Source of the DNA: a virus
Virus record (IMG/VR): IMGVR_UViG_3300028398_000014
Span: 1-26,350 of that record
Strand: one strand, 5' to 3'
DNA: 26,350 nt
This document shows, piece by piece, positions 4,462 through 25,931 of the stretch. The notes under the pieces are model-generated. The model was not told the DNA's origin. It searched no databases and saw only the letters and a program-made list of their open reading frames with translations. The translations under genes and the position numbers were made by a program. Each line of letters starts with the position of its first letter. Positions within the stretch are counted from its first letter, which is position 1.

Positions 4462-4468
4462 GTCGTTA
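4462..4468 (-). repeat. Third TAACGAC copy in the 4415-4482 gap
   Basis: On the minus strand CTAACGACAAAATTCAGG occurs in this gap, matching the TAACGACAAAGTT start of element B. The rest of elements A and B is not recognisable here; only a small TTGC...GCAA hairpin follows before the ribosome site. It may be a degenerate copy of the same element. Confidence 0.3.
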
Positions 4469-4482
4469 GCCGTATTTAGATT

Positions 4483-4731: not shown

Positions 4732-4837
4732 TTTCTAACCTCCTTTTCCAAAACCTTAATTTAATCCAAAATGGACAATTCCACTTACCTACTAACCAAG
4801 TAGTACGACCCCAACGTCGAATATCCTCTAAAATCAT
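4721..4837 (-). CDS. 38-aa basic, Trp-rich microprotein
   Basis: A short frame bridging two genes. Its ATG overlaps the helicase stop as ATGA, GAGGGAG lies 9 nt upstream at the end of the helicase gene, and its TAA lies 8 codons' worth of overlap or less inside the start of the Bbp19-like gene. It encodes a peptide starting MILEDIRRWGRTTW, rich in Trp, Arg and Lys, with one Cys. Start and stop overlaps on both sides and a good ribosome site are the support; there is no homology evidence. Without it there would be an unusual 102-nt hole in an otherwise packed operon. Confidence 0.5.
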   Translation of the reverse strand: MILEDIRRWGRTTWLVGKWNCPFWIKLRFWKRRLENEY

Positions 4838-7286: not shown

Positions 7287-7536
7287 CAACATCCTCCTTT
7301 GATTTAATAATATATACTGAGGCTCCTTGCTCTCGCATACGTTTAATTTCTCGTCGCTGTAGTTTAGATAATTTACCCGTGGCTTTTTTAACTTCCACAA
7401 AATGCGCCCCATTTATAAAACATATTCTGTCTGGCACTCCCCGATGCCATGAAACGAACTTGCGGGTGAAACCACCTAGCCATTCGACTCGACGAGTCAA
7501 ATAGGTCTCGATTGCTTTTTCTGTGTTAGAGGCCAT
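7255..7536 (-). CDS. VRR-NUC domain nuclease
   Basis: A 93-residue single-domain protein of the VRR-NUC (PD-(D/E)xK) group. The N-terminal Glu in TEKAIETYL, then GVPDRICF (catalytic Asp), FVEVKKATGKLSKLQ (E-x-K with following Gln) are in the expected order. Family knowledge: stand-alone phage VRR-NUC proteins resemble Holliday-junction resolvase-type nucleases. It has an AAGGAG ribosome site, overlaps the ligase by 32 nt and the upstream gene by 40 nt. It probably acts with the SNF2 helicase on replication or recombination intermediates. Confidence 0.88.
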   Translation of the reverse strand: MASNTEKAIETYLTRRVEWLGGFTRKFVSWHRGVPDRICFINGAHFVEVKKATGKLSKLQRREIKRMREQGASVYIIKSKEDVDEFCRKVVTD

Positions 7537-7772
7537 TTTAATAACTCCTTCAACTTACTATACCGGGTTAAACGTAAATATCTACCATAGATTCTATTAA
7601 CAAAAGACGGCCGGTTTCTATGAGTTAACTCCCAATGCATTAGCTCTACTACTTCATATTCGAGATTAGTTAAAGCCAACGCGGATGCTAAAGTAGAGGT
7701 ACTAGCCAATACTGTATAGAAATACGAATCGGTTTTCGTGTAGCCATTAAAACTATTTAACTGTGTAATCAT
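7497..7772 (-). CDS. Unknown protein in the replication block (91 aa)
   Basis: Its ATG overlaps the polymerase stop as ATGA, and its 3' end overlaps VRR-NUC by 40 nt. The 91 residues include a Ser/Thr/Ala-rich N-terminal stretch (from TVLASTSTLASALAL) and a basic C-terminal half with RIYGRYLRLTRYSKLKELLKW. The composition suggests a nucleic-acid contact, possibly a small HTH-like domain, but no motif can be named. Gene position between a polymerase and a nuclease suggests an accessory replication factor. Confidence 0.65.
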   Translation of the reverse strand: MITQLNSFNGYTKTDSYFYTVLASTSTLASALALTNLEYEVVELMHWELTHRNRPSFVNRIYGRYLRLTRYSKLKELLKWPLTQKKQSRPI

Positions 7773-9688
7773 TTCTTATACCTTTTCCCAATCCATCCTT
7801 CTGCGGTGATAGGCGCATCACACCAATCAGAAGATGTACATAATAGGTTATTAAAACGGTTGATAGTATCATCTGTTATATCAATTTCCGCCACTTCCGC
7901 AATCGCTTCATCGTGAACCAGGCCGATCAACAGCGCCTCAGGCATAAACGCTTCTATGGCCATACAGCCATCAACCAATACATCCCTAGCTATACCTTGA
8001 ATTATATTCTCAATAAGCCGCCCCGGTGTTAGAGTTTTAGGCCCCCATTTTTTGGAATACGGATTTATACCATAATGCCGTACTTCAGGACCGTATTTAC
8101 CCTGTTCTATAAACGGTTGACAGTAGTAGAGTTTACGCTTAGAAGGCAAAGTCAACAACAGCCAATTTCGACCAGCCCGATCTATAGTAGTTTTAAAAAC
8201 GCATTTGTTAGTTTCATATGGCACCCCCGGATTCTGAATAGCAGCTATCGCGCATATTTGCAAATGCTTCCAAGTCTTTTTTAATTTTGGATGCGCTCCA
8301 CGATAAGTATTAACTGCATACTGCGCCTCTTCGTCAAACATTGTTACCCCCCAACTTTCGGCGGTTTCTTGGAGGCGCAACCACCCCATTTGATACCCAC
8401 AGCCTAGAACAATGATTTTTCCTACAGTTCGTTGATACTTAGATACATTAGCGTACTCACAGCCAAACAGCCGACAAGCCATTTTCTTGTATAAATCAAT
8501 CCCATTTCGTATATCTTGCAGCACTTCTTGCTCGTCTGCAACCCACATTGTCAAGATATTTTCGATAGAATGATAGTCACTTACCAGAAGCATTTTTCCT
8601 TCCGGCGCGCATATAACACTGCGAATCAATGCTTTGGCTATGTTTACTGGGTCCTCAACTGGACGAAAAGTCCTAAACCGTTCTAACATATCATCTGGAT
8701 TATCAACCGACGCCCGCGGTAAATTTTGGAGTTGAAAACCAGAACCAGACCACCGCCCGGTCCCTGTTCCATGGTATATTAAATTATCATAAATACGATC
8801 ATTATACGCCATAGACAGTAACTTTTTAAATTTTGCAGTACTACTACGGGCCAATGTTTGACGAAGTTTTAAGACTAAGCGTACATTTTCAGGCAGCGTA
8901 GAGTCTTTTAAAACCTTTTCCACTGTTCCAGCCTGTAAGTTAGGAAGTTCAATCCCTTTAGACTCTATCCAATCTCTTATGCGCTTAGTCTGGGTTGCCT
9001 TAGTCACTCGACCATCAGTCAATTCAGCCAATTGGCCTTGCATCTCATCGACATAAGATAGAATATAATCGTAGATTTTCTCACAGACTTCCGTATCTAC
9101 AGGCAATCCTCGCTGATTTATAAAACAAGTAAATCGCCACACCCAATCTTCATACTCTGATAGTTTATCGGCCGGTAAAGTATTAACTAAATCGTATGTA
9201 GTTGCCACATCCTGCTTACAGTATTCGAGCAATGCCTCAAAATCAGCCGCCGAATAATCCATATTCATTATTGGCCGTCGGTTATTGTGCGGCGCACATA
9301 TCTTTTTAATTAACGAGAGTCCAGCCGAAGATTTCTGTTGTGTTAATTCCAGAGTTTTTGCGACAATATCTAATTTACGAGGGAAAGTAAATCTCGAGGC
9401 TAACGCAGCTGTATCGACGAATCGAGTCAATGGTACAACAGGAAACGCATATTTTCGAACTCCTATCTGCCACATATTATACTCAAACAAAGCATTGTGC
9501 GCATAAATAGCAGCCGTTTGGAACTCTTTCGGTAATAAGTTTCCAGGTAGCCACATTTCTATGGGGTTATTATCTATTTGGTACGCCATGCAAATAATAT
9601 CAACTTCGCGCCCATGACTATATGCATAGGACCCTGCATTTATAGACACATCTGAATATGTCTCCATGTCTATGATTATCTTTGTCAT
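7769..9688 (-). CDS. Family A DNA polymerase with 3'-5' exonuclease
   Basis: A 639-residue replicative polymerase. The exonuclease domain has IIIDMET (Asp7, Glu9), an Exo II-like IYAHNALFEYN (62-71) and Exo III EYCKQD (155-160). The polymerase domain shows TGTGRWSGSGFQLQNLPR (308-325), motif A LLVSDYHSIE (Asp371), motif B RTVGKIIVLGCGYQMG (420-435, Lys424) and motif C LVHDEA (His592-Asp593-Glu594). This matches phage PolI/T7-type enzymes without a 5'-3' exonuclease. DYHSIE replaces the common DYSxIE, so the Ser after Tyr is changed to His. It is presumably the phage replicase working with DUF2815 and the VapE-type helicase. Confidence 0.96.
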   Translation of the reverse strand: MTKIIIDMETYSDVSINAGSYAYSHGREVDIICMAYQIDNNPIEMWLPGNLLPKEFQTAAIYAHNALFEYNMWQIGVRKYAFPVVPLTRFVDTAALASRFTFPRKLDIVAKTLELTQQKSSAGLSLIKKICAPHNNRRPIMNMDYSAADFEALLEYCKQDVATTYDLVNTLPADKLSEYEDWVWRFTCFINQRGLPVDTEVCEKIYDYILSYVDEMQGQLAELTDGRVTKATQTKRIRDWIESKGIELPNLQAGTVEKVLKDSTLPENVRLVLKLRQTLARSSTAKFKKLLSMAYNDRIYDNLIYHGTGTGRWSGSGFQLQNLPRASVDNPDDMLERFRTFRPVEDPVNIAKALIRSVICAPEGKMLLVSDYHSIENILTMWVADEQEVLQDIRNGIDLYKKMACRLFGCEYANVSKYQRTVGKIIVLGCGYQMGWLRLQETAESWGVTMFDEEAQYAVNTYRGAHPKLKKTWKHLQICAIAAIQNPGVPYETNKCVFKTTIDRAGRNWLLLTLPSKRKLYYCQPFIEQGKYGPEVRHYGINPYSKKWGPKTLTPGRLIENIIQGIARDVLVDGCMAIEAFMPEALLIGLVHDEAIAEVAEIDITDDTINRFNNLLCTSSDWCDAPITAEGWIGKRYKK

Positions 9689-9792
9689 TTAACTATTCTC
9701 CATGTATATGCAGTCATTAGTTGTAAAGAGTCCATGGATATATCTGCTTGGGACCACAATGTAGCCCCAAGCATAAAACACTCCCAATACAT
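9685..9792 (-). CDS. Possible 35-aa coupling microprotein upstream of polymerase
   Basis: The frame ends in TAAATGA, overlapping the polymerase ATG. Starting at the ATG at 9792 it encodes 35 residues; a second ATG at 9774 (29 residues) has a better ribosome site, GGGAG 6 nt upstream. Without it there would be a 117-nt gap before the polymerase, and the polymerase itself lacks a clear ribosome site, so coupling through this short frame is plausible. No homology is recognisable, and the peptide could be a mere leader. Confidence 0.35.
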   Translation of the reverse strand: MYWECFMLGATLWSQADISMDSLQLMTAYTWRIVK

Positions 9793-9805
9793 AAGACTTC
9801 GATGT

Positions 9806-10345
9806 TTATTCAAAATCGCTAACTGAGTCTTCTTTTGCAAACGCCTCAAAAGCCTCTGTAGCGGATTTACGGCCGTCCAATCGTTCGCCCTCTTTATACA
9901 GCATGATATTATTAAGACCCGCTCCAATACCTTTGCCGCCTTTGGGATGATTGTATGGATAGAAATTAACATCAACATGGCAATAACAACCCGAATATAG
10001 CCGATCAGACTCCATTAAAGGTTGAACATTTTCATCAACTATACCAGGTTGATTCTTGTTATATGCGTTAAAAAACATGCAACCTTTATAATGCTCTCCG
10101 CGTTCTTCAGCCTCGACAGCTTCATCTCCATCCCAAAGACAGCGTTTAAAAGTTCGACTTTTCACATTAGCTTCGGTGAACTTACCCGCAGCTATACCTT
10201 TTTTTACTGTATCAGCTATTGCTTTCTGAACCTTAGCTAATTGTGGGTCATCTTTTCGAATCAATACGCAAACACTATATTTATCATTATTTCGTGATGG
10301 CTCGAAAATAAAGGCCCAGTCAATTCGTACATTCTCAATAATCAT
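9806..10345 (-). CDS. DUF2815 single-stranded DNA-binding protein
   Basis: This 179-residue protein matches DUF2815 by its N-terminal 'NVRIDWAFIFEP', central KGCMFFNAYNKNQPGIVDEN, and 'SGCYCHVDVNFYPYNHPKGGKGIGAGLNNIMLYK'-type segment. Family knowledge: DUF2815 proteins resemble T7 gp2.5-type OB-fold ssDNA-binding proteins and usually sit next to DUF2800 and polymerase genes. The C-terminus is acidic and ends with SVSDFE, the kind of acidic aromatic tail by which SSBs recruit partners. It starts at an ATG that overlaps the upstream stop (TAATG), with GGAGG 8 nt before. Confidence 0.88.
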   Translation of the reverse strand: MIIENVRIDWAFIFEPSRNNDKYSVCVLIRKDDPQLAKVQKAIADTVKKGIAAGKFTEANVKSRTFKRCLWDGDEAVEAEERGEHYKGCMFFNAYNKNQPGIVDENVQPLMESDRLYSGCYCHVDVNFYPYNHPKGGKGIGAGLNNIMLYKEGERLDGRKSATEAFEAFAKEDSVSDFE

Positions 10346-10629
10346 TACATATACCTCCGCTCATTGTTAATCATAACTTCGTCAAATTTCTCATTTAGCT
10401 CTTCATTAGTTATCTCATAAGCGTCTGCTATATGGGACAAGAAGAACATTACATCTACGATTTCTCGTTTTAAATTTTCGCGATCTACCTCCATATCTTT
10501 CCATGGTTTCCAATTAAATGACTCTACTAATTCAGCTACTTCCATAAATAACGCCAGCGCGTATTGGTTAACTGAATAAGTACCCACTTCCTGCTTAAAT
10601 CGTTGAATTCTATTCCGATTTCCAATCAC
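10345..10629 (-). CDS. MazG-like nucleotide pyrophosphohydrolase
   Basis: I choose a GTG start at 10629 because AGGAGGG lies right before it and it falls one base after the ThyX stop; an upstream ATG at 10656 would place the N-terminus inside the ThyX gene. The 94-residue protein has the all-alpha NTP pyrophosphohydrolase pattern: FMEVAELVESFNWKPWK, then NLKREIVDVMFFLSHIAD, giving the E-x3-E ... E-x2-D metal-binding set. Such enzymes cleave (d)NTPs to monophosphates. Neighbouring ThyX and the dATP/dGTP diphosphohydrolase-like gene suggest a role in shaping the dNTP pool. The preferred nucleotide cannot be read from sequence. Confidence 0.82.
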   Translation of the reverse strand: MIGNRNRIQRFKQEVGTYSVNQYALALFMEVAELVESFNWKPWKDMEVDRENLKREIVDVMFFLSHIADAYEITNEELNEKFDEVMINNERRYM

Positions 10630-10630
10630 C

Positions 10631-11302
10631 TTAACCCTCCTCCTCTTGCCGATCATACACTATGCCGCAAGACATCTTTCCTTGGTTACATTTCCCATCC
10701 ATCCAGCATGGTGGCCCAGCAACTAAACCGAAATCCCTCCAGTAAAGCTTGGTGGCTACTCGAATTTTTTCGGTTAATATTTGTATCTCTTTACAATTAC
10801 GTTGACAAAGTCGCAGCCTAAAGAAATTTAATAATGAACGGGCATTCACGGTCCACATTAGATTTACGGCACAAGCATTTGGCAGTAACTGCCGGGCTTC
10901 TTCTTTTGATGCGCCTTTGATACGTATAGCCGTTACATATGCGTTAAGGCTATGCTCTAATGCACTAGCATCAGCCGTAGACGGGTCTTCTACAACCATC
11001 GGCATGTCATCATAAGTCGCATAGTGCTGACTGGCGCTGGTAAAAGAACCCATTCTATGCCGAGTTATCTGAGCTAAACAACTACGACTTATACCCTCGA
11101 TATAAAACGTCCAAAAACAATGCTCCAACACTGAAGTATGCTCGGCTTTGATTAGAAATCGTAGCATTTTCTTACCACATATTGGCGGATCATATATGGT
11201 CTTATTCATAGTAAGACCACATGCTTCTCCGACTAATAAATCGGGGTAAGAAGGAAATTGCAAACAACGAACTACTATATCATTATAGCTCTGAATCTGC
11301 AT
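10631..11302 (-). CDS. thyX: FAD-dependent thymidylate synthase ThyX
   Basis: The 223-residue protein carries the ThyX signature RHRx7S as RHRMGSFTSAS (Arg81-His82-Arg83 ... Ser91), preceded by HTSVLEH (55-61), and later EARQLLP and NARSLLNFFRLRLCQRN..KEIQ, both typical of this flavoenzyme. It converts dUMP to dTMP using methylenetetrahydrofolate and NADPH as reductant through FAD. Length is in the usual range. The start follows CCGGAGGGTTAA and directly abuts the upstream stop. It supports phage DNA synthesis; the C-terminal segment contains extra Cys residues (CWMDGKCNQGKMSC), as in several phage ThyX proteins. Confidence 0.95.
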   Translation of the reverse strand: MQIQSYNDIVVRCLQFPSYPDLLVGEACGLTMNKTIYDPPICGKKMLRFLIKAEHTSVLEHCFWTFYIEGISRSCLAQITRHRMGSFTSASQHYATYDDMPMVVEDPSTADASALEHSLNAYVTAIRIKGASKEEARQLLPNACAVNLMWTVNARSLLNFFRLRLCQRNCKEIQILTEKIRVATKLYWRDFGLVAGPPCWMDGKCNQGKMSCGIVYDRQEEEG

Positions 11303-11749
11303 TTAACCCTCCGGATATAATCTATTGATCTTCTGAAGCTGCTTTATCCAAGTATCAGCCAGCGCAGCCGAAGCAACTTGATACTGTGACTGACAAGTAA
11401 TTTTGGCTAAATGACCTAAAGATATAATACTGAGATCCAAGGCCTCCCTTTCAATATTTAATTTTTCAATAATAATAACACAATTACAGGCCAAATGCGC
11501 CGCATGCGGTAAACCAGTATCTGGGTCAGGTTCATCACTGTTATACTTCGCCAACTGGTGGCGTAGAGCGGCCCCGGTAAACTTATTAAGTGGGGTTTCT
11601 CTCCAGTTATCCGCTCCGTATTTCATTGCCCCGAAAGACATAATTTGCCATACATCTTGTAACAATTTTACATTAGTTATATACTGTGTAGCTACATGAG
11701 GTAATACGGCGAGATCCAATTTTTCTCGGGGCTCCTGAGTTTTATTCAT
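11303..11749 (-). CDS. dATP/dGTP diphosphohydrolase-like protein (DUF5664)
   Basis: The 148 residues contain MKYGADNWRETPLNKFTGAALRHQLAKY, DPDTGLPHAAHLACNCVIIIE, the pattern I recognise from phage proteins annotated as dATP/dGTP diphosphohydrolase N-terminal domain (DUF5664). These are all-alpha, MazG-related proteins. The conserved His/Asp/Glu positions in RHQLAKY and PHAAHLACN are the likely metal and substrate contacts. It starts with GGAGGAGG upstream and runs directly into ThyX. The purine nucleotide specificity is taken from the family label and has not been shown for this protein. Confidence 0.75.
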   Translation of the reverse strand: MNKTQEPREKLDLAVLPHVATQYITNVKLLQDVWQIMSFGAMKYGADNWRETPLNKFTGAALRHQLAKYNSDEPDPDTGLPHAAHLACNCVIIIEKLNIEREALDLSIISLGHLAKITCQSQYQVASAALADTWIKQLQKINRLYPEG

Positions 11750-11784
11750 TTAATCCTCCTCCAAACATAATCGCGTTTATTTAA

Positions 11785-11823
11785 GCCAAAAATAAATGAG
11801 TGCCGAGTCATCGACACTCATTT
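11785..11823 (-). terminator. Strong Rho-independent terminator
   Basis: On the minus strand, AAATGAGTGTCGA (11823-11811) pairs with TCGGCACTCATTT (11806-11794) around the tetraloop TGAC, a 13-bp stem with a single G-T pair, followed by ATTTTTGG. It lies 7 nt after the stop of the gene at 11830-12393 and should terminate that transcript. Confidence 0.85.
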
Positions 11824-11829
11824 GGTTAA

Positions 11830-12393
11830 TTACTCAAACTCATCAAACTCAGAGTCTTTTGTCTCATCCACAATCTCAGCCTGAATATTCTCGGACTTAC
11901 CAGCCGGAACTTCAGTAACTGCTGCGGCATCTTCACGAATCTGCTCAATATCAAAACCCGCCTTTTCCGCAACTTCCTCCGCTTTAGCCTGTTCCAATTC
12001 TGCCAATTTCAAATTGATTTCAGCCAAATCGACCCTAAGACCAGTCTCTTCAGACTCCAAGTTCTCGTGCCGGTTCACAGCATTTTCTAAGGTTTTTGCA
12101 CAACGAACTACCCGCTTATCAGCTCTACGAAGCCGTTCAGCCGGATCCTTAGTAGTTCGACCATTTCCTTTTGAGGCCTCCCGAGCTTTAGACCATTCAT
12201 CATAAGTAGTCATTTTAAAGACCCCATCTACTTCAACTGGACAAATATTTGCCCCTGTATATTTGGACGCATTGCGGAACGCGGACAAATATGAACTAAA
12301 TGACCCAGCGGTACATTGAGTCGCCTCCAAAATTTCATCTTTAGTGTATTTCTCCTCTTTCAGCATCGCCAATACATCTTGTTCCTTAGACAT
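11830..12393 (-). CDS. Acidic-tailed, probable DNA-interacting protein (187 aa)
   Basis: Starts after TAAGGAGG. The N-terminal ~50 residues look like a winged-helix or HTH unit (LAMLKEEKYTKDEILEATQ...AGSFSSYLSAFRN). The middle is a long charged coiled coil (about 95-150), and the C-terminus is acidic, ending DSEFDEFE. That tail resembles the SVSDFE end of the DUF2815 protein in the same block. The gene has its own promoter (12440-12468) and a strong terminator, so it is probably made in quantity from a single-gene mRNA. A structural DNA-binding or replication accessory role is inferred. I do not recognise the family. Confidence 0.75.
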   Translation of the reverse strand: MSKEQDVLAMLKEEKYTKDEILEATQCTAGSFSSYLSAFRNASKYTGANICPVEVDGVFKMTTYDEWSKAREASKGNGRTTKDPAERLRRADKRVVRCAKTLENAVNRHENLESEETGLRVDLAEINLKLAELEQAKAEEVAEKAGFDIEQIREDAAAVTEVPAGKSENIQAEIVDETKDSEFDEFE

Positions 12394-12439
12394 GATAATC
12401 CTCCTTAAATAGGGTTAATGAAATAAAATAATACATGTT

Positions 12440-12468
12440 TATATAACACGTATTGTTTATTTTGTAAA
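12440..12468 (-). promoter_or_regulatory. Sigma70-type early promoter
   Basis: Minus strand: TTTACA (12468-12463), 17-nt spacer, TATATA (12445-12440). It lies in the 86-nt gap upstream of the gene at 11830-12393. It shares the TTTACA -35 and 17-nt spacing with two other promoters of this block (14731-14759, 17498-17526). Confidence 0.65.
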
Positions 12469-12479
12469 CCATAAAATGC

Positions 12480-13655
12480 TTATTTTGATTTACAATTCTG
12501 AAATACCTGTTCAGCTTTTTGTACTTTTAATTCAGGACGCCGGTCTTCTTCAAAGGCCAAAACCGGCTTACCTTTTGGCTTCTCGATATATGTAACTAAC
12601 TCTGCGCGTGCTGACTTTGATAATAATTTTTCAGCTTTTGCAGGAGATACCATTTTAGATTCATAAATTTTATCCAATTCCAGATGCCGCCCTAAAAATT
12701 GTTCTGCGACCCTTTGATCCTTCCATTTTCGAGTTGATCTACCCACCACTAATTTAAAACCGGGAAAAGGCCGACCGAGTCGAAGTTCATTGAAAATATA
12801 TAGCCGAACATCTTGGACATACCGTTCAAATTCCTTAGCCCGTTTTAATAAATCAGCCAACTGTCTATTAGACACCGTGGCTACTTTCTTATGGGCTTTA
12901 AAGACGTCTTGCGCTATTTCTTGAACTCGCTCGTATCTAGCGGTACAGAGTACTGAAGCTTCACAAAACCTGCATTGGGATTCCCCTGGAGTCATAGGGG
13001 CATTTTTAGAATACGCTGTTTGAACCCCACGGGTTAACTTATTTAACCAACCAATCAACTCATCCGCCGTATATTCTACCATCTGAAAATTATTCATTCT
13101 AGGCTGCAATACATGAATAAAATAGCGTTTATCCGAATTAAGATTCTGCTTTAATTGAATTGCACCTAGCAAATACGCTAATAACTGTGCATTATCTTTG
13201 GCGTCGACCCATACTCCTTGGCCATACTTTTCATCCATAATATGGATCTCATTAGCTGCTTCTAAGATTATGTCACAGGTTCCTTCAACTTCATACAATA
13301 TAGGGTCTAATTCTTTTAGATAGACTCGTTTCTCAACTGACATTGAAAAATCCAACCGACGTTTTGCCACAGACGCCACATAATCAATGCAGTCTTGAAC
13401 TGCTGATAATTGATCTACCGTAAGATCTGAATGATTTACAGGAGTAAGTGCCCAGGAATCTGGATGGTTAAAGATATGTTGTTCAAACGCCATATGTAGC
13501 ATAGTACCTTCAACAGCATAACTTGATTCGATATGTTCTTGCTGAATTTTCCCGGACAATTCAAGTTGTTGAATCAGTTGAAATGACCCGGGACACGCTA
13601 AAATTCTTGGAAGTCTCGACGGGCTCATTTTAGTGTGGTAAATAATAGGCATCAT
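12480..13655 (-). CDS. DUF2800 PD-(D/E)xK (Cas4/RecB-like) exonuclease
   Basis: The 391-residue protein matches DUF2800: N-terminal SPSRLPRILACPGSFQL, then YAVEGTMLHMAFE, EGTCDIIL (catalytic Asp), HIMDEKYGQGVWVDAKDNAQLLAYLLGA (D/E-x-K with Gln), and C-terminal CRFCEASVLC. The last, together with the early Cys25-type residue, resembles the Cys set that holds a 4Fe-4S cluster in Cas4/AddB nucleases. It probably resects phage DNA ends or processes recombination intermediates together with DUF2815. The ATG overlaps the upstream stop by 4 nt. In canonical members the metal motif is DYKYG; here it is DEKYG. Confidence 0.88.
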   Translation of the reverse strand: MMPIIYHTKMSPSRLPRILACPGSFQLIQQLELSGKIQQEHIESSYAVEGTMLHMAFEQHIFNHPDSWALTPVNHSDLTVDQLSAVQDCIDYVASVAKRRLDFSMSVEKRVYLKELDPILYEVEGTCDIILEAANEIHIMDEKYGQGVWVDAKDNAQLLAYLLGAIQLKQNLNSDKRYFIHVLQPRMNNFQMVEYTADELIGWLNKLTRGVQTAYSKNAPMTPGESQCRFCEASVLCTARYERVQEIAQDVFKAHKKVATVSNRQLADLLKRAKEFERYVQDVRLYIFNELRLGRPFPGFKLVVGRSTRKWKDQRVAEQFLGRHLELDKIYESKMVSPAKAEKLLSKSARAELVTYIEKPKGKPVLAFEEDRRPELKVQKAEQVFQNCKSK

Positions 13656-14077
13656 AATGACGACTCCTGTACAGTAGATAAAAGAGTAATTAAACCGATA
13701 TGAAAGCCATTTTCATAAGCGTCCATAACATCGTTATAGGACCAAGCTACCGCATTGTAACTATGATCCGTTATTAAATCCAAACAATACGCCACTCCAA
13801 TTAGAATTGGTACAACGTCAAAATCCCGCCACTCTTCTTGCGCGTACGCAGTATTCAACATATTCCGAGTCACTTCTGTTATTTTACTTGTTTCGTTTAA
13901 CAATTTACTGCTAGACCAATAAGACGGGCATGTTAAAATTTCTCTACATAGAAAAATGTGTAGAGAAGTATCTGCGAATCGCCTGCATACTTCAGAGTTT
14001 ATTGGGCCTTCATCTAATAAATTCAGCGCTTTTATACTTTGAGCCATTACTTGTTCAACAATTTCTCTTGATTTCAT
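13652..14077 (-). CDS. Unknown helical protein in the replication block (141 aa)
   Basis: Begins at an ATG overlapping the pentapeptide gene stop (TAATG), with GAGAGG just upstream, and overlaps DUF2800 by 4 nt. It is mostly alpha-helical by eye, with several Cys residues and a hydrophobic stretch around FDVVPILIGVAYCLDLI that is amphipathic rather than membrane-spanning. No motif is recognised. Tight coupling to DUF2800 suggests a partner in the same process. Confidence 0.65.
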   Translation of the reverse strand: MKSREIVEQVMAQSIKALNLLDEGPINSEVCRRFADTSLHIFLCREILTCPSYWSSSKLLNETSKITEVTRNMLNTAYAQEEWRDFDVVPILIGVAYCLDLITDHSYNAVAWSYNDVMDAYENGFHIGLITLLSTVQESSL

Positions 14078-14682
14078 TACATCCTCTCAATGTCTGTTCT
14101 GTAATCACATAACCCATTTAATATCGCATCCGGGCAATCAGCTAACCAATCTAGGGCCTCTGAACTTAAATCATTCCAAATTTGCCGGGTTAAATGATAT
14201 ACCAACTGAACGAACAATTTATTGTCTGCTACTATATTAGTGCCCCCACAGTGAAACGGTATTCCAGAGCTATAATCTAGATCTGTCTCTCGAAGATCCG
14301 CTCCCCGAAGATCCGCTTTTTGAAGATCCGCTCCCCGAAGATTCACGCCTCGGAGATCCGCTTCTCGAAGATTCGCGTCTTGAAGATTCGCGTCTTGAAG
14401 ATCTGCTTCTTGAAGATTCGCTCCCCAAAGATCCGCTCCCCGAAGATCCGCTCCCCAAAGATCCGCGCCCTGAAGATCCGCTCCCCGAAGATTCGCTCCC
14501 CGGAGATTCGCTTCTTGAAGATCTGCTTCTCGAAGATTTGCTTTCCGAAAATCCGCTCCCCGAAGATCTGCTCCCCGAAGATCCGCTTTTTGAAGATCCG
14601 CGTAATCACCACCACGACCTTCTAACCACATTTGATGCAGTTCTAATATATTAGCAAGATCAGATTTAGTTAATGCACTCAT
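14077..14682 (-). CDS. Pentapeptide-repeat protein
   Basis: The 201-residue protein has a short N-terminal lead (LANILELHQMWLEGRGG), about 22 consecutive pentapeptides of the A(D/N)LxG type (about residues 27-137), and a 60-residue non-repeat C-terminal domain. Such repeats form a right-handed quadrilateral beta-helix; some members (Qnr, MfpA) mimic B-form DNA and bind gyrase. Here the gene lies in the replication operon just downstream of its own strong promoter. The 15-bp DNA periodicity, with long runs of GAAGATCCGC-like units, shows recent repeat expansion and leaves several other frames open by composition only. Gyrase binding is a hypothesis; many pentapeptide proteins have no known partner. 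Confidence 0.9.
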   Translation of the reverse strand: MSALTKSDLANILELHQMWLEGRGGDYADLQKADLRGADLRGADFRKANLREADLQEANLRGANLRGADLQGADLWGADLRGADLWGANLQEADLQDANLQDANLREADLRGVNLRGADLQKADLRGADLRETDLDYSSGIPFHCGGTNIVADNKLFVQLVYHLTRQIWNDLSSEALDWLADCPDAILNGLCDYRTDIERM

Positions 14683-14730
14683 TCGGTTCCTCCTTTCTTA
14701 AGATTAAAAATTCCAACTTTCTATAAATAA

Positions 14731-14759
14731 ATTATAATAAATTATTTTCTTTGTGTAAA
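14731..14759 (-). promoter_or_regulatory. Strong sigma70-type promoter
   Basis: Minus strand: TTTACA (14759-14754), exactly 17-nt spacer, perfect TATAAT (14736-14731), about 50 nt upstream of the pentapeptide-repeat gene. The sequence TTTACACA..AAGAAAA...ATTATAATTT is nearly repeated in the promoter at 17498-17526, pointing to a common early-promoter type. Confidence 0.75.
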
Positions 14760-14768
14760 TATGAAATT

Positions 14769-17195
14769 CTAGGAAATTTCCTGAACTCTAAAAGGATTTA
14801 TTACAGTGGGTTTAAATATACGTAGCCGATTACCATATTTAACAAATCCATTTTTAACCTCAGTCTTACCTTTTCTACCAGATGGAACTTCTAGCATAGC
14901 ATACAGCCGGCGTAAAACGTGGCCTACTTTTTTCGGATGCCTTGAAAAATCGGTTCCATGAATCTGATCTATATGCTTACATAACTCCAAAATAGTTATA
15001 GTGTAATCTACCACGCTACTTCGAGTAGTCTCCCATTCTCGAATCTGAGTTTCAATTATTTGAGGGTTGATTTGTAAAACGGCATCTAATTGAATTTCAG
15101 CATCTGATTTAGCGCGAAACCCATTATAAATATCAGTCAATCTAGTCTGGGTTTCATCATCTAACTCCCAAGGTGCTCGACCCATTGGATCCGACTGAGA
15201 TAAACGCTTAACTACTTCTCGAACTTGACACCATAACTGTATTTTATTAAATTCGCGTAATTTAGGAATATCTATAGATTTAATCGGCATAACCCACCAT
15301 CGGCGATAACCGCCTTCTGGAAATTTTAATTCAGTATGATTAGTCGAGCCGATAAAAACCGCGGTTCTAGGAACCGAAATAGCTGCTTTTCCATAAGGAG
15401 GCCTATATACGTCTACTGCTTTTGTTATATAATCCTTAAGCATCGCTTGATTCGTTTTTTCAAAAAGAACATCTATTTCACTCAAGCCGACAATAAGTTT
15501 ACCTTTGAGCGTAATCAAAGCATCTTTAGATTTAAGATTTAAAGCCGCTAAATTCTGATCTTGCGCTAAATGACTCCATTCATGTGGAAATAGAAGAGAC
15601 GGTAGAGTTGATTTGCCTTCACCACCGCGCCCCGCTGACATAAGAATAGGTACTCCACCCATAGCTACATTTCTGTGATATGGCGCTAAATTATCGGGCC
15701 ACAGTGACCGAGATACCCCATAAAGCATCTTAGTAAAAAATGTTCGCCACATATCAGTCGGTACTTGGCTAGTATATTTATCTTGTATAATAATGGTGTC
15801 TAGCAGCTCAGTTATATAATCATGGCCATCCCATGGATACTGATCAAGCCACTGCGCAAAAAACGGCCTGGTGTCTGGTTTCGCTATATCATATAAAATT
15901 CGTTGAATCTCGGGATATGTGGGCTGAAGTCCATACTGGTTAAATTGCATCTGCAATATGGGCAATTGGTCTTCTAAGATTTGTTTACTTGAGTCGAACA
16001 TCAATTGTTCATTTAGGTCTTCGTAATATATTGGGAATATCAATCTGTCCGCCCCTTTTATACAGACTTTATCAGTAAGTGCATCTTTAACTACTTTTAG
16101 ACCAGTAAGATTCAACCAATAAATATAATTCGACTCCGCCGCTTTGTTAGGCGTTCCTGCAGCTGATTTTGCGGGCCAATCTGGTCTAAAATGCTGATAT
16201 AACCACCCATAAGTCGCCGCGGTGATTCCGGATTCTTTTGTTACTTCAAGAGATTCCCATTTATCAATCACTTGTTTAGCTGATTCAAATGCCAAATCTT
16301 TTTTAGACCAGGCAATAAGTAATTTTCGTAGAAGAGGTGAATCTTGCCAGGTAGCCCGAATAGCAGTCAAACACGCCAACCAATAATCATAGTGATTCCA
16401 ATTTTTAATTCGACATATATATTGTTCTACAGCGTCTTGTTCATCCAGTCGAACCATAAGCAGCCATCTACTGAGTGGAGTCAATTTCGGCATTTTAGAT
16501 ACCGGCTTAATCCAGCGAAAGTCTATATGGCTAACCATTTCTTCTAAGGGCTGGTCATGAATATCGGCCACATCTACAAAGGTGTTATCCAGTAATTCAG
16601 TCAAACTAGGAACCGGATTTTCCGAGGCAGAGTCTGATTCAGATTTACGGCAAACTTTAGGCCAATTTTGGGTGAGTGCTTCAACTGGTATTTCTGCAAT
16701 TTCAATTCTACATCTTGGGTCAGCAGTTACTATATTATTGGTCAATGTGACATATCCAGTACTGATAAATAATTGCAACTGCTTAGGCGAGTCAACCGGA
16801 TTCTCTAATACTGGCTTAGACGCCAATTTAGCTTTTTGTGATGGGTCGATTTGGTACAAAATACGATACCCGTTACCAGATGGAGAATATTCGATATAAG
16901 TAGGATATTTGGATACGAGGCTATCCAATTTTTCAAATTGATCGATAGAGGTATGATCTACGTCAAAGGCAATAAACGGTTTATTTTTTGTAAGAACTAA
17001 TCCAATTTTAGATCGCTGTTTAATTTGACTCCAGGACATAAATCGGTCGGGCTCATTGATTGGAATTAACGGAAACTTAATTATCTTTTCGGGTTTTTTA
17101 GGGTGTTTTCGGGGTATCCACGGCACAAACATTTTCGTTTTAGATAAGCCTCGCTTTCCAAATAACTTGTTTAGATTAGTATGTTCACTTTGCAT
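14769..17195 (-). CDS. Primase-polymerase / VapE-type helicase fusion
   Basis: An 808-residue replication protein. The N-terminal third looks like an archaeo-eukaryotic primase-polymerase domain: IAFDVDH (Asp78, Asp80), YSPSGNGYRILYQ and QLFISTGYVTLT. The C-terminal half is a virulence-associated-E (VapE) type SF3-like ATPase: WLDQYPWDGHDYI, Walker A SAGRGGEGKST (520-530), Walker B LIVGLSEID (Glu573), then RTAVFIGSTNHTEL and GGYRRWWVMP. It should prime and unwind DNA at the origin. It starts after GGAGA and overlaps the small HTH gene by 11 nt. Being the second gene after the iteron region fits a role in initiation. The substrate of the primase domain cannot be told. Confidence 0.9.
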   Translation of the reverse strand: MQSEHTNLNKLFGKRGLSKTKMFVPWIPRKHPKKPEKIIKFPLIPINEPDRFMSWSQIKQRSKIGLVLTKNKPFIAFDVDHTSIDQFEKLDSLVSKYPTYIEYSPSGNGYRILYQIDPSQKAKLASKPVLENPVDSPKQLQLFISTGYVTLTNNIVTADPRCRIEIAEIPVEALTQNWPKVCRKSESDSASENPVPSLTELLDNTFVDVADIHDQPLEEMVSHIDFRWIKPVSKMPKLTPLSRWLLMVRLDEQDAVEQYICRIKNWNHYDYWLACLTAIRATWQDSPLLRKLLIAWSKKDLAFESAKQVIDKWESLEVTKESGITAATYGWLYQHFRPDWPAKSAAGTPNKAAESNYIYWLNLTGLKVVKDALTDKVCIKGADRLIFPIYYEDLNEQLMFDSSKQILEDQLPILQMQFNQYGLQPTYPEIQRILYDIAKPDTRPFFAQWLDQYPWDGHDYITELLDTIIIQDKYTSQVPTDMWRTFFTKMLYGVSRSLWPDNLAPYHRNVAMGGVPILMSAGRGGEGKSTLPSLLFPHEWSHLAQDQNLAALNLKSKDALITLKGKLIVGLSEIDVLFEKTNQAMLKDYITKAVDVYRPPYGKAAISVPRTAVFIGSTNHTELKFPEGGYRRWWVMPIKSIDIPKLREFNKIQLWCQVREVVKRLSQSDPMGRAPWELDDETQTRLTDIYNGFRAKSDAEIQLDAVLQINPQIIETQIREWETTRSSVVDYTITILELCKHIDQIHGTDFSRHPKKVGHVLRRLYAMLEVPSGRKGKTEVKNGFVKYGNRLRIFKPTVINPFRVQEIS

Positions 17196-17436
17196 TAGTC
17201 AATCTCCGTCGTTGCGCATAAACTGTAGAAGGTTTAACTCCAAGGTGGAAAGCCGTTTCAGCGATTGGTATATTATTATACTGATCCTCGTAAATTTTTT
17301 GCTGTTCTTGTGGACTTATAGGGATACGATGCCCACCACGACGTAAGAATCTGCGCACTTCATCTAGTGCGTATGTGGTATGTGTTTGTAGCAGAGTTTC
17401 TAGTCTACTCCAATGCAGGTAAGAAGTTTGTTTCAT
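17185..17436 (-). CDS. Small helix-turn-helix DNA-binding protein
   Basis: The 83 residues end with a clear HTH: IPIAETAFHLGVKPSTVYAQRRRL (about 56-79), preceded by basic RRFLRRGGHRIPISPQEQQ. GAGGT precedes the ATG. It is the first gene of the minus-strand replication block and is adjacent to the iteron array, so it is the natural candidate for the protein that binds those repeats as an initiator or autoregulator. That link is positional only. A terminase-small-subunit-like or Trp-repressor-like HTH is an alternative fold. Confidence 0.72.
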   Translation of the reverse strand: MKQTSYLHWSRLETLLQTHTTYALDEVRRFLRRGGHRIPISPQEQQKIYEDQYNNIPIAETAFHLGVKPSTVYAQRRRLTNAK

Positions 17437-17526: not shown

Positions 17527-17635
17527 CCTAAAAATTTTTGTAATTATTTTAAATACTTAGATTTTTAGGGTATTCATCAGTATAAAAGAATATAATTACA
17601 GAATTGTAGTTGGTCGTGTATTAACTCCAAAAGGA

Positions 17636-18346
17636 TGCTAAATCAGCAGCTTAGAAAGCAGGTTTTTTTTAAAAATATTGAAAGATAATAATATCAATGG
17701 GTTATAAATTACCTAATGATATTAGCTACTTGTAGGATTTTTGCTTTATTTTCTTAATAATATCAAAGGTATGTTTAAACTTCCAATGATATTAGTAGGT
17801 TACGAATTATTATAATAATATCAAAGACATGTTTAAAACACGAATAATTTCAATTGGTTAGGAGGCACCACGTCGTGATTCCATAATAAAATCAGCAGGT
17901 TACGCTGCGTTAAATTTTTGTAATTTGGATATTTGTAATAATATTATATACTTATGCACTAGTTTTTACTTTATCAGGCTGAATTGCCCCGAAAAAATAT
18001 GTAATGATTTCAAGTACTTATAAAGTTGAAAATCGCAATTTTCTTAATAATATCAACAGCTTAAGTGATTTTGTTTTACTTTTACCTTTTTTTAAGCTTT
18101 GACACTTTTAATATCGTGTATTTATCGTGATTTTTAATCGTCGGGCAGGACGCCTGCGCTGTGTACCACACCCGAAGAAACGAATGGTCATTCATTTTTG
18201 CATAGGCTATAACGAGCTATTTTGACCCCTCTAATATAAAAAATATACATCTAAGTAACTGATATTATTAGAAAAATTTGTTTTATTTTTCTACGATTTT
18301 TGAAATACAGCTCAAATCTCGCGGCGAGTAAGCCACTGATTTTATT
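17636..18346. repeat. Array of ~12-13 degenerate 18-bp iterons, consensus AATAATATCARYRGSTTA
   Basis: Forward copies begin at 17636 (weak), 17687, 17715, 17756, 17785, 17814, 17843, 17885, 17937, 18003 and 18046. Inverted copies occupy 18252-18269 and 18329-18346. Examples: AATAATATCAATGGGTTA (17687), AATGATATTAGTAGGTTA (17785), AATAATATCAACAGCTTA (18046); the inverted ones read AATAATATCAGTTACTTA and AATAAAATCAGTGGCTTA. Start-to-start spacing in the dense part is 28, 41, 29, 29, 29 and 42 bp, close to three or four helical turns. Such spaced repeats beside primase and HTH genes are what one expects of a replication-initiator binding array. Because the region is AT-rich, the weakest copies could be chance. 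Confidence 0.7.
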
Positions 18347-18500
18347 ATGGAATTAAGCGAATTTTTATTTATTTTTAATTTTTTAAAAGTAAGAAAAACA
18401 AGCCCTGCGTCACATTGAAAAATTTGTAACACTTTATTTTACGCTGCTACCGCGTAAGTATATGGAATTATTACAGAACATTGTGGTATTTTTAAAAGGT

Positions 18501-18576: not shown

Positions 18577-18756
18577 ATGCACATAGCGCCGCTGACTCGC
18601 AGGGTCGACTATGCCGATGCCGATGCCGATGCTAAGATGGTGTTTGGTTTCTACGCTTCACCGACCCACAGGGTCGACTATGCTGATGTTAAGATGGTGT
18701 TTGGCTTCTACGCTTCACCGACCCACAGGGGCGACTACACAAATACTGGTGTTTAG
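18577..18756 (+). CDS. Possible 59-aa repeat peptide
   Basis: A frame from ATG 18577 to TAG 18756 reads through the tandem repeat and encodes two near-identical copies of KMVFGFYASPTHR separated by VDYADV, then ends with GDYTNTGV. The repeat units differ by multiples of three bases (69 and 57 bp) over the first three copies, which would keep this frame. Against it: no ribosome binding site, a stop just upstream, and another frame (18611-18805) is also open. I do not recognise the peptide. It may be the remnant of a duplicated coding segment from elsewhere. Confidence 0.25.
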   Translation: MHIAPLTRRVDYADADADAKMVFGFYASPTHRVDYADVKMVFGFYASPTHRGDYTNTGV

Positions 18757-18800
18757 CTTTCATGCCTCACCGACCCACAGGGGCGATTGGGTGGATGGCA
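18590..18800 (+). repeat. GC-richer tandem repeat, 3 to 4 decaying units
   Basis: Four units begin with CGACCCACAGGG(T/G)CGA or a variant (near 18591, 18661, 18718 and 18770). Units 1 and 2 share the longer stretch GTCGACTATGC...AAGATGGTGTTTGGYTTCTACGCTTCA; unit 0 also has a GATGCC triplication. Unit lengths are about 69, 57 and 52 bp. The block is richer in G and C than the flanking AT-rich DNA, suggesting separate origin. Confidence 0.75.
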
Positions 18801-18820: not shown

Positions 18821-18851
18821 ATAAAAAGTGAGGAGGATGCGAGATCCTCCT
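18821..18851 (-). terminator. Rho-independent terminator
   Basis: AGGAGGAT (18831-18838) and ATCCTCCT (18844-18851) form a perfect 8-bp stem with a 5-nt loop. On the minus strand it is followed by CACTTTTTATTTTTG. It lies 8 nt after the stop of the gene at 18860-19165 and should end transcription of the two small minus-strand genes before the repeat and iteron region. Confidence 0.75.
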
Positions 18852-18859
18852 TATGTGGT

Positions 18860-19165
18860 TTATTTGTTGATGTAGACTGGTTCTCCTTTGTTTTCGTCCC
18901 AATACGCTTCGAGAACGATCATGCCCTCGTGCTTGGATATTCCAGCCAAGTATTTCTTTCTGGCGTGTGATAACACACTCGCAAGTGAATTCTTCTTGAA
19001 TTCGTGTGGCCTCTGGTCATCTGGCCAGAGCATGTTAATTGCTTCTGATTCTGTAATGGCGCCCTTGGTTTTGAGATACTCAAAGAGCTGCGTGGGCCTG
19101 GCTGTAGTAGTCGACTTGTTGATACTATTAAGAAATTGTTCTTTAGTTATTTTCTTTTGTGCCAT
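18860..19165 (-). CDS. Unknown protein, winged-helix-like (101 aa)
   Basis: Starts after AGGAGG. The 101 residues contain a probable winged-helix-type segment: TQLFEYLKTKGAITESEAINMLWP, then SLASVLSHARKKYL, and a beta-rich C-terminal end (MIVLEAYWDENKGEPVYINK). This layout suggests DNA binding, but no family is recognised. It is separated from the replication block by the iteron region and has its own terminator, so it belongs to a short, separately transcribed unit with the gene at 19226-19441. A regulator of the early/late switch would suit the position; that is inference. Confidence 0.68.
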   Translation of the reverse strand: MAQKKITKEQFLNSINKSTTTARPTQLFEYLKTKGAITESEAINMLWPDDQRPHEFKKNSLASVLSHARKKYLAGISKHEGMIVLEAYWDENKGEPVYINK

Positions 19166-19225: not shown

Positions 19226-19441
19226 TTATATACATTGTCCATAGTAACTTAAAATAGGCCGTTTACGACCGGTTGATTCTGTGAATTGAAGATAGAGTTC
19301 ATAGTGCGCCCCGAATTTGTGTTCGAGGCACATTAAACTTCGTAAGCATTCTACTGTAGTGCTGAGTGCCTCCTTATCACTCTTGCAGTTGAGGTTTATA
19401 GTATGAACGTTGTGTTGCGTATACCATTGCATGGTGTACAT
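19226..19441 (-). CDS. Small unknown protein (71 aa)
   Basis: ATG preceded by AAGGAGGTAAAA. The 71 residues have a mixed alpha/beta look: strand HNVHTINLNCKS, helix KEALSTTVECLRSLMCLEHKFG, strand AHYELYLQF, then RKRPILSYYG. This beta-alpha-beta order resembles a small ferredoxin-like fold, but there is no signature. It is the first gene of the two-gene minus-strand unit facing the late promoter region. Function unknown. Confidence 0.6.
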   Translation of the reverse strand: MYTMQWYTQHNVHTINLNCKSDKEALSTTVECLRSLMCLEHKFGAHYELYLQFTESTGRKRPILSYYGQCI

Positions 19442-19541: not shown

Positions 19542-19607
19542 GACGAGTAGAGGAGGGCCCGGGGAAAATTAGGCGGACGGACCGGAGGGATAGTCGATTC
19601 ACAGCTA

Positions 19608-19845
19608 CAGAGCTAATTTAGATCCTTAAACATATCTACGTTTAGAAGAATAAATTGCAGAGCTAATTTAGATCCTTAAACATATCTACGTTTAGAAGAA
19701 TAACTGTGGAGAAGAATAACTGTGAAGAAGAATAAATTACAGAGCTAATTTGGATCCTTAAACATAGTTATGTTTAGAAGAATAACTGTGAAGAAGAATA
19801 AATTGCAGAGCTAATTTGGATCCTTAAACGTAATAGTGTTTGAGC
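19608..19845 (+). repeat. Four ~50-bp tandem repeats with internal palindromes
   Basis: Copies begin with CAGAGCTAATTT(A/G)GATCC at 19608, 19658, 19740 and 19806. Each is followed by a palindromic core: TTAAACATATCTACGTTTA (copies 1 and 2), TAAACATAGTTATGTTTA (copy 3, perfect 8-bp arms) and a more diverged AAACGTAATAGTGTTT (copy 4), then AGAAGAATAA. The extra length between copies 2-3 and 3-4 is made of 16-bp subrepeats AGAAGAATAACTGTG(G/A). The block sits upstream of the late promoter and so resembles an operator or activator array. Confidence 0.85.
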
Positions 19846-20006: not shown

Positions 20007-20034
20007 TTTACTTTTTTTAAAAATAGTGTATAAT
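20007..20034 (+). promoter_or_regulatory. Late promoter giving a leaderless mRNA
   Basis: TTTACT (20007-20012), 16-nt spacer, perfect TATAAT (20029-20034). A start 7 nt after the -10 falls on the ATG of the terminase small subunit at 20041, and no ribosome binding site precedes that ATG. The 19846-20006 stretch before it also has TTGTAAC...GTTACAA and TATATG...CATATA inverted repeats but no gene. Confidence 0.6.
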
Positions 20035-20040
20035 ACAAAT

Positions 20041-20532
20041 ATGGGAACAATATTACCTGCTACTATCAGAGCTGCTAAATTTGATTATGAGTTTCTTGGT
20101 AGATCCACCAAGGAAATCGCGGAACTTTATTCACTTCCTGAGGCGTCCCTAAAAGCCGAAATTCAGCAACAATCCTGGACTCGCAAATTTAATTTTCCTA
20201 CACCGCAGACTGATGATTTAGAAACTTTAGAAGATTTTGCTCGCGGAGTAGACGCCAGAGCTAAAGCCCAGCTCCTAATAATGTCATCTTACCGGCAACT
20301 ACAGCAGCAAAGTCTTTTAGCGGCTGTAGAAGATACTTTATTGGAAAAATCAATGGCTATTTTGGGGTCGTTATCCTCCTCCGACCCGAGCAGCGCCGCG
20401 GCTCTGACGTCTATTATGCGAGTAGTTTCAGCTATCCAAGAACGCCAGCAAACAGTCACCGGAAAAGTTTCGACTCAGGAATTAGAAGAGGGTAATAAAG
20501 TAGTAGTACAGATTCAGAATAATATCACATGA
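20041..20532 (+). CDS. Terminase small subunit
   Basis: I choose ATG 20041 because the -10 box ends 7 nt upstream; the frame is open to a GTG at 19954, but that would place the promoter inside the gene. The 163 residues have an N-terminal HTH (FLGRSTKEIAELYSLPEASLKAEIQQQSW), typical of DNA-recognising TerS proteins, a helical oligomerisation region (ARAKAQLLIMSSYRQLQQQSLLAAVEDTLLEK) and a short C-terminal beta segment (KVVVQIQNN). It would recognise the packaging site and load TerL. The stop overlaps the TerL start (ATGA). The family is inferred from HTH plus position. Confidence 0.82.
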   Translation: MGTILPATIRAAKFDYEFLGRSTKEIAELYSLPEASLKAEIQQQSWTRKFNFPTPQTDDLETLEDFARGVDARAKAQLLIMSSYRQLQQQSLLAAVEDTLLEKSMAILGSLSSSDPSSAAALTSIMRVVSAIQERQQTVTGKVSTQELEEGNKVVVQIQNNIT

Positions 20533-21953
20533 AAGTTAAATTGCCCATAGTAGATCTTAGGAGTTATCAGAAACCGCTATGGAATTATATGCTGCAGTCC
20601 AAACCTGGTCTTCGAGCGGTAGTTGTTTGGCCTCGTCGAAACGGAAAAGATCTAGTAGCAATTAACATACTAGCGGCTAAAGCGCTTCAGCGCCCAGGAG
20701 ATTATGCTTATATTGCGCCTTTTGCTAATCAGATGCGAGGTATCATCTGGGAAGGACGTGATGGAACCGGTACTAGATTCATCGACTATGTACCAAGAGA
20801 GCTTGTTAAGCGCTCTTTAGATCAAACAATGAAACTGTGGTTAGCTAATGGAAGTACTATTCAGCTGTTTGGTTCTGATAACCCAGATAGTTTAGTTGGC
20901 CGTAATTTCGTCGGAATGGTTTTTACCGAGTTTTCACTGCATAAGGATTTAATCTGGGGTTATATGCGGCCAATGCTTACTGAGAATGGTGGTTGGGCGC
21001 TGTTTAATGGGACCCCAAGAGGGATAAATCACTTTTATGCAATAGCGCAGGTTGCTAAAAGTTCTAAAAAATGGTTTTATGAGCACTTGACAGCTGAGGA
21101 TACTGGTTTTCCGTCTAAGGAGGATATAGAGGAAGAGCGAAAGGCCGGCATGGCAGAGTCGTTAATCGATCAAGAGTTTTATACCTCATGGACGGCATCA
21201 TCAGAAGAAACACTGATTCCACTGGAGTCATTAAAAATCTGTTTAAAAACAGTGGTGGTTCCTAATAGCCAGACAGCTTACCCACGATTGTTGGGGGTTG
21301 ACCCAGCCTATGCGGAAAAAGGGGATAATGCCGCAATTTGCGAGCGCCAAGGACGAATTGTAAGACCGGTATGGGCGCAACGAGGGGTTGATCCTATGGA
21401 TTTAGCCTCATTAGTATCGGCTAGAATCATTGAACGAAAAATAGATTATGTTTGTATTGACGCTGGGCGAGGTGAAGCAGTTTGGTCTCGGTTGCTTCAG
21501 TTAGGGCATGGATCCAAAGTTATAGTAGTAAATTTTGGAGGACGAGCCGCGAATCCGCTTAAATATACGAATAGAAAAACTGAAATGTGGGACCGAGCGC
21601 GGCTGTATCTCTGTAATAAAGCTTTACCACCGCAGTTACCCCCAGATGAAAAGCTGATTCGAGATCTGTCGGCGCCGATGGTAGAAAAGAATGAAAAAGA
21701 GCAGCTAACTCTGGAGTCGAAGAAAAGTTTATTAAAACGGGGATTTCGGTCTACAGATAGGGCCGACGCGCTAGTTTTGACTTTCGCTGAAGATTTTGAT
21801 TCGATGGTGGATCCTCGGGTTGAACAGTTGGCTAAACGTACGGGATTAGATCGGTATGCCATAGGTCAGATGTTGGAACGGCATGACCAGGCATCGTACA
21901 ATCCCTTGGAGTTCATGGAGCAGATTCAAAGGTCTTCAGACTCATGGAGATAA
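20529..21953 (+). CDS. Terminase large subunit
   Basis: The 474-residue protein shows a Walker A-like VVWPRRNGKD (33-41), Walker B NFVGMVFTEF with Glu134 as probable catalytic base, a coupling-type FNGTPRG, and the C-terminal RNase H-like nuclease with LLGVDPAYAEKGD and VCIDAGRGEA plus a later Asp in RSTDRADALVL. This is the ATP-driven motor and nuclease that cuts and packages DNA into proheads. It overlaps TerS by 4 nt and the next gene by 10 nt. The TE in place of the usual DE in Walker B is common among podovirus terminases. Confidence 0.95.
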   Translation: MKVKLPIVDLRSYQKPLWNYMLQSKPGLRAVVVWPRRNGKDLVAINILAAKALQRPGDYAYIAPFANQMRGIIWEGRDGTGTRFIDYVPRELVKRSLDQTMKLWLANGSTIQLFGSDNPDSLVGRNFVGMVFTEFSLHKDLIWGYMRPMLTENGGWALFNGTPRGINHFYAIAQVAKSSKKWFYEHLTAEDTGFPSKEDIEEERKAGMAESLIDQEFYTSWTASSEETLIPLESLKICLKTVVVPNSQTAYPRLLGVDPAYAEKGDNAAICERQGRIVRPVWAQRGVDPMDLASLVSARIIERKIDYVCIDAGRGEAVWSRLLQLGHGSKVIVVNFGGRAANPLKYTNRKTEMWDRARLYLCNKALPPQLPPDEKLIRDLSAPMVEKNEKEQLTLESKKSLLKRGFRSTDRADALVLTFAEDFDSMVDPRVEQLAKRTGLDRYAIGQMLERHDQASYNPLEFMEQIQRSSDSWR

Positions 21954-25364: not shown

Positions 25365-25931
25365 ATGCCGGAAGAAACCCAAGAAACCCAAGAAACTCAA
25401 GAAACCCAAGAAACTCAAGAAACTGAAGAGGCCCAAGAAACTCAAGAAACTCAAGGCACTGAAGAAACCCAAGAAACCCAAGGAACAGAAGAAACCTCGC
25501 AGAGTGATGACTCGTCAGAGGGAATAGAGATTCCAGCGCCGATTCAGGACTGGGCAAGTAAGCATGGATTTTCGAATTCTCAAGTTTCTGCTATGGCTAA
25601 GCAGTATGCGGATTTGACTACTCATTCGAGAGCCGCAGAAATCGCGGCGCTGGTTGAGAAGGGAAAAGAAGTGCTTAATGAGTGGGGAGACAAAGCTGAA
25701 ATAAAACAGAAGGCGGTATCCCGAGCGCTTCGTGAGTTCGATCCTGAAAATGAATTGGGTGAGATTTTGGAGAATACTGGGTATAAGCATCATCCTGCCG
25801 TTATGCGGATGTTTGCTAGGATAGGCGAGTCCCTTAATGAAGGGACTTTTATAAGCGGATCTGCGGGTCCTCGAGTTTCTACAAAGACTCGGGCACAGCG
25901 TATGTATCCATCAATGAAAGGAGATAAATAA
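25365..25931 (+). CDS. Capsid scaffold-like protein with ETQ repeat N-terminus
   Basis: AGGAGG lies just upstream of the ATG. The first ~43 residues are an expanded low-complexity tract of ETQ, EEAQ and GTEE units built from a 9-bp CAAGAAACC/T repeat. The rest is helical and acidic with a recognisable scaffold/assembly-type segment, WGDKAEIKQKAVSRALREFDPENELGEILENTGYKHHPAVMRMFARIGESL, and ends KTRAQRMYPSMKGDK, typical of small scaffolding proteins that precede capsid genes. It would guide prohead assembly and leave before packaging. The stop overlaps the capsid ATG (TAATG). Confidence 0.82.
   Translation: MPEETQETQETQETQETQETEEAQETQETQGTEETQETQGTEETSQSDDSSEGIEIPAPIQDWASKHGFSNSQVSAMAKQYADLTTHSRAAEIAALVEKGKEVLNEWGDKAEIKQKAVSRALREFDPENELGEILENTGYKHHPAVMRMFARIGESLNEGTFISGSAGPRVSTKTRAQRMYPSMKGDK

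Follow-up and report, generated by a model that had tools for sequence, protein, structure and literature searches.

A putative cos-type packaging site with a tandemly amplified box upstream of the terminase genes in a podovirus group known here from metagenomes

Gene layout of the locus and its relatives

The window, i.e. the whole stretch of DNA analysed here, is an entire virus record of 26,350 bases, assigned to a podovirus by domain matches of its portal (Head-tail_con) and its capsid protein (GP7 family). Replication genes run leftward (3078-17436) and late genes rightward from 20041. Between and around these two gene sets we located the following features:

18860-19165, minus strand: gene for a winged-HTH-like protein (weak wHTH matches of its predicted model; relatives carry similar genes at this position)
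19226-19441, minus strand: small leftward gene left of the GC-rich motif (reading frame without known domain)
19555-19568, plus strand: GC-rich motif GGGCCCGGGGAAAA, proposed cosN (cut site), with counterparts in relatives
19569-19605, plus strand: conserved spacer block with ATAGTCnAnnCACA
19608-19657, plus strand: repeat copy 1, occupying the ancestral box position (box 19608-19625, dyad 19627-19644)
19658-19739, plus strand: repeat copy 2 (box 19658-19675, dyad 19677-19694), followed by two 16-bp inserts
19740-19805, plus strand: repeat copy 3 (box 19740-19757, perfect dyad 19759-19776), followed by one 16-bp insert
19806-19842, plus strand: repeat copy 4 (box 19806-19823, decayed dyad 19825-19842)
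20007-20034, plus strand: late promoter TTTACT-N16-TATAAT, TTTACTTTTTTTAAAAATAGTGTATAAT (promoter scan)
20041-20532, plus strand: gene for an HTH protein in the small-terminase position, candidate box binder (directly 5' of terL in relatives; predicted N-terminal HTH and long helical pair)
20529-21953, plus strand: large terminase gene (phrog_2, E 2e-32)

A large terminase search of viral contigs yielded L002-L006 (56-60% identity), and alignment of their large terminases brought in further relatives. None of the terminase relatives in this set belongs to a cultured phage; among cultured phages, the best matches stay below 50% identity and mostly cover half of the protein. No relative was found in a TerL scan of bacterial and archaeal genomes; a pattern scan for additional relatives returned only two already known members, and a further candidate, L140, was discarded as a chance match. 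The longer loci share one order around the site: primase and a small HTH gene, then a long non-coding stretch and one or two small leftward genes, and finally the GC motif, the late promoter, the terS-position gene and terL.

Several further features were observed in the record and its relatives. A strong hairpin at 18828-18854, scoring as a terminator on both strands, lies just past the stop of the winged-HTH-like gene. The protein encoded at 14077-14682 is pentapeptide-repeat-like and coded by 15-bp tandem repeats, and the frame at 25365-25931, just 5' of the capsid gene, opens with an ETQ-rich stretch of 9-bp tandem repeats. In three relatives, frames that by eye resemble HNH endonucleases (L014:74-592, L017:1429-1935, L006:5754-6005) are inserted directly before terS or between terS and terL.

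Four direct repeats upstream of the terminase genes

The earlier note had described four repeats with palindromic cores at this place, one of them perfect and their spacing varied by 16-bp subrepeats, and our analysis bore out each of these points. The unit CAGAGCTAATTT(A/G)GATCC plus dyad occurs four times at 19608-19842 and nowhere else in the record. Searched with up to three mismatches, the box pattern CAGAGCTAATTTRGATCC was found at these four sites only (0.01 expected in 26,350 bases), all in direct orientation; an exact box in other viral contigs was limited to one chance match within the unrelated contig L007. The copies start at 19608, 19658, 19740 and 19806, and their start-to-start distances of 50, 82 and 66 bp result from the 16-bp unit AGAAGAATAACTGTGA, inserted twice (32 bp) after copy 2 and once (16 bp) after copy 3. 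The box is identical at 17 of its 18 positions over all four copies, while the dyad and tail of copy 4 have drifted. The dyad of copy 3, TAAACATAGTTATGTTTA, is perfect, with 8-bp arms and a 2-bp centre.

The note had also named structured RNA as an option and had called the imperfect copies compensatory-like variants. Among the eight dyad pairs, four are invariant, three vary on one side only and one only breaks, so that none is changed on both sides; with just three distinct copies, this comparison has low power. The pairing in RNA that the note had suggested for copies 1 and 2 holds on the minus strand (G.U) but not on the plus strand, where an A x C mismatch results, and the dyad of copy 4 has G.U pairs on the plus strand together with an A x A mismatch. 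The pattern thus favours neither RNA strand. Folding z-scores of -2.1 (plus) and -3.4 (minus) speak for structure; however, repeats containing inner dyads fold well regardless, and the predicted fold pairs the repeats with each other rather than forming one hairpin per copy. Moreover, an Rfam search of the window gave nothing near threshold, and the late promoter sits downstream of the array. A structured RNA is thus very improbable. Nor did a search for the palindrome in relatives, which the note had recommended, reveal a consistent family feature, as the dyad was not significant overall.

A GC-rich motif, spacer and box are conserved at fixed spacing

L002, L003, L005, L006, L017, L019 and L093 have counterparts of the GC motif in the interval from the last leftward gene to terS; in the window record SGGGGAAAA occurs once. 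To align the element, nine members (the window, the seven relatives just named and L015) were anchored at the last G of the motif. Conserved columns without gaps extend over +6 to +40 and +41 to +66, above the maximum from 2000 random rotations. This ungapped conservation across the nine members includes the spacer block, where most 14-column windows exceeded all 2000 rotations; most windows reached 8-10.6 bits, compared with a 95% null maximum of 6.75. Given that the terS-position proteins of the relatives are only 26-38% identical to that of the window, unselected DNA would be expected to have lost such similarity.

The family box lies at +47 to +62 from the GC motif, and copy 1 of the array, covering +43 to +92, overlies it. 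The intermediate relatives L018, L020 and L021, excluded from the nine, were used together with 13 distant ones as a held-out set. The best box match fell within 2 bp of the expected offset in 7 of these 16 (L020 and 6 of the 13 distant relatives), with a binomial p of 2e-6 that is optimistic because it ignores the members' shared ancestry; for L018 and L021, two of the three intermediate relatives, no box match was found at that offset. The window's own box was a weak match to a model built without it (4.3 bits), and it is therefore identified mainly by its position.

Repeats of unrelated sequence amplify the box-containing stretch in several members

The box-containing stretch is duplicated in five members, namely the window, L005 (repeat length 49 bp), L093 (about 41 bp), L017 (62 bp) and L019 (53 bp). 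The repeats of the four relatives are unrelated in sequence to that of the window; in all five members the first copy spans the box. No tandem repeat was found at the site in L002, L003, L006 and L015, which keep a single box-like stretch. The repeats, the conserved element with its fixed spacing, the amplification of the box region and the gene order are direct observations. We tentatively propose, at somewhat less than even confidence, that a single docking box at a rigid distance from the cut site changes its sequence and undergoes fresh tandem amplification lineage by lineage, such that packaging specificity and strength would shift fast while the geometry of the cut site stays fixed.

It is also conceivable, though rather doubtful, that only the element around copy 1 is functional, for packaging or otherwise, and that the extra copies are neutral products of slippage, which would be compatible with a role in packaging. 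Copy number does vary among the relatives, down to the four members without a tandem repeat, and the 16-bp subrepeats suggest slippage. At 10.5 bp per helical turn, the spacings of 50, 66 and 82 bp amount to 4.8, 6.3 and 7.8 turns; not being whole turns, they place the copies on different sides of the helix, and each copy may work on its own, or else copies 2-4 may be neutral. Neutrality is, however, at odds with the near-identity of the box in all four copies while the dyad and tail of copy 4 drifted, and with the amplification of the same part in five members.

The position of the box is linked to the GC motif rather than the late promoter

The late promoter named in the earlier note is supported by counterparts in 9 of the 10 relatives searched (L014 being without one), which take the form TTTACTTT with a 16-17 bp spacing and a TATAAT-like hexamer and are present with or without arrays. 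Depending on the relative, 122 to 442 bp separate it from the GC motif. As the box is fixed to the motif while the promoter distance is variable, the box is tied to the motif and not to the promoter, and the array lacks the fixed placement relative to a promoter that marks an operator array. The note had offered the repeats as protein sites switching late transcription and had named, as a finding that would speak against this, relatives that keep the promoter and lack any repeats. This is largely what we observed, in that the promoter is retained in L002, L003, L006 and L015 although these have no tandem repeats, but the single box-like stretch stays. An array of protein-binding sites is likely; a late-transcription switch is not supported.

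The repeats might nevertheless be operators for a phage regulator (the wHTH protein of 18860-19165 or the HTH protein of 17185-17436) controlling divergent early and late promoters. The box with its near-palindrome resembles a dimer site, a wHTH-like gene is close by, and the array separates the leftward from the rightward genes. Besides the variable distance to the promoter, the absence of box copies at other promoters of the window and the lack of dyad conservation in relatives argue against this explanation, which we regard as unlikely. In the window, as in L005 and L017, the -10 hexamer (20029-20041 region) ends 6 bases before the terS ATG, so that terS mRNA may be leaderless.

Even less probable is a replication or partition role for the conserved element, with the repeats as iterons. 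The repeats are direct and lie in a non-coding stretch adjoining AT-rich DNA, but the core of the element is GC-rich and tied to the terS side, and a better origin candidate exists at 17541-18474, where TAATAATATCAA-type repeats common to L002, L005 and L017 are found. Sites of the TAATAATATCAA..ACTTA type, about ten in number and oriented either way, make this non-coding stretch a candidate replication origin or set of regulator sites; at 14 of 19 matches the whole window contains 16 such sites (2-7 under a Markov null), and similar sites are present in the same three relatives. Four further repeats of the type GACCCACAGGG(T/G)CGACTA, two of them within a 57-bp tandem unit, lie in non-coding DNA at 18594-18797.

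A candidate small terminase that may bind the box

The predicted model of the protein encoded at 20041-20532 (mean pLDDT 67) comprises helices at residues 4-18, 23-29 and 34-44 and long helices at 60-109 and 116-135. The N-terminal HTH and helical oligomerisation core of this model, with the gene beside terL, are what is expected of a small terminase, and on account of its place and this modest model we name it a putative small terminase. A TerS PHROG match was obtained for one of 11 members and was weak (E 0.075). PDB sequence and structure searches gave no match to a solved TerS; hhalign of the family profile gave none to the TerS or terS-position proteins of epsilon15, CJY, ZP6 and HK97, and a search of cultured phages likewise returned nothing. 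The wHTH-like neighbour (18860-19165) is a possible alternative binder, likewise judged from a predicted model.

Likeness to known packaging sites

Taken together, the repeats and the GC motif probably form a packaging site of the cos type, arranged as in lambda (cosN, cosB, terS, terL), in which the terS-position HTH protein would bind the repeats. The large terminase would cut the concatemer at the GC motif (19555-19568, cosN), the HTH protein would dock on the box about 47 bp beyond the motif and position the cut (cosB), and tandem amplification of the docking box to four copies would raise site occupancy. All three of these roles, i.e. cutting at the motif, binding of TerS to the box and higher occupancy with more copies, are ones that we infer. 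We prefer a cos site with an amplified box because a GC-rich element and docking box precede terS and terL as in lambda-like cos sites, and because of the P2 end and the L015 contig end described below. The ungapped conserved blocks, the held-out matches, the placement of every first repeat copy on the box, the lack of boxes at other promoters and the predicted HTH with long helices speak for it as well. Against it count the missing TerS matches, the weak score of the window's own box, the two intermediate relatives without a box match at the expected offset, the inconsistent dyad, the missing IHF-like site and the motif searches in cultured distant relatives. The element would thus be of a known kind, in a phage family not yet described. 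If true, this would allow the genome ends of a phage group known here from metagenomes only to be recognised by sequence, make single-box and amplified docking sites directly comparable within one family, and open packaging specificity to study beyond a few lambda-like models.

As expected of a cos site, the motif lies 476 bp upstream of the terS start, with terL next. The contig of L015 begins inside the GC motif; given about 28 contig ends and a 40-kb genome, we estimate the chance that one of them falls in the motif at near 1%. Other contig ends cluster near the motif, many of them 37-111 bp on its far side, which makes contig ends weak evidence for cos. The record ends of the cultured distant relatives HTVC034P, HTVC100P and RHph_I3_18 showed no clear motif, the nearest motif match of ZP6 was not at its record end, and the record ends of HTVC010P and CJY were inspected by eye only.

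The annotated cosL of P2, GGCGAGGCGGGGAAAGCAC, fits the family pattern GG-N(3-8)-GGGG-AAA; it adjoins a leftward portal gene, whereas the window motif is upstream of terS. In HK97, TerS recognises a site of 15 bp that lies downstream of the cut, from +15 to +29 (PMC10370121). For the VP2-like Vibrio phage OVC8, a tandem sequence located 299 bp before terS was proposed to contain a cos site (PMC4802629); this is a prediction in a distant relative, likened to the window by description.

The lambda cos resembles the window in having a GC-rich cut region followed by multiple TerS sites, terS and terL; the lambda record opens with the left end and has nu1 at 191. The two differ in sequence, in orientation (the window sites are all direct, while lambda R2 is reversed) and in the IHF-like site that lies between R sites in a complex, lambda-type cosB: no WATCAANNNNTTR match at up to one mismatch was present in the window interval, and IHF sites were fewer than expected by chance. 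The cosB of lambda has three R sites (R3, R2, R1), while N15 has one critical site (PMC4669245). L002, L003, L006 and L015 likewise lack a tandem repeat, although their sequences are unrelated to N15 and their TerS not recognisably so. By analogy, simple and complex cosB forms would coexist in one family, as they do in lambda-like phages (PMC4669245).
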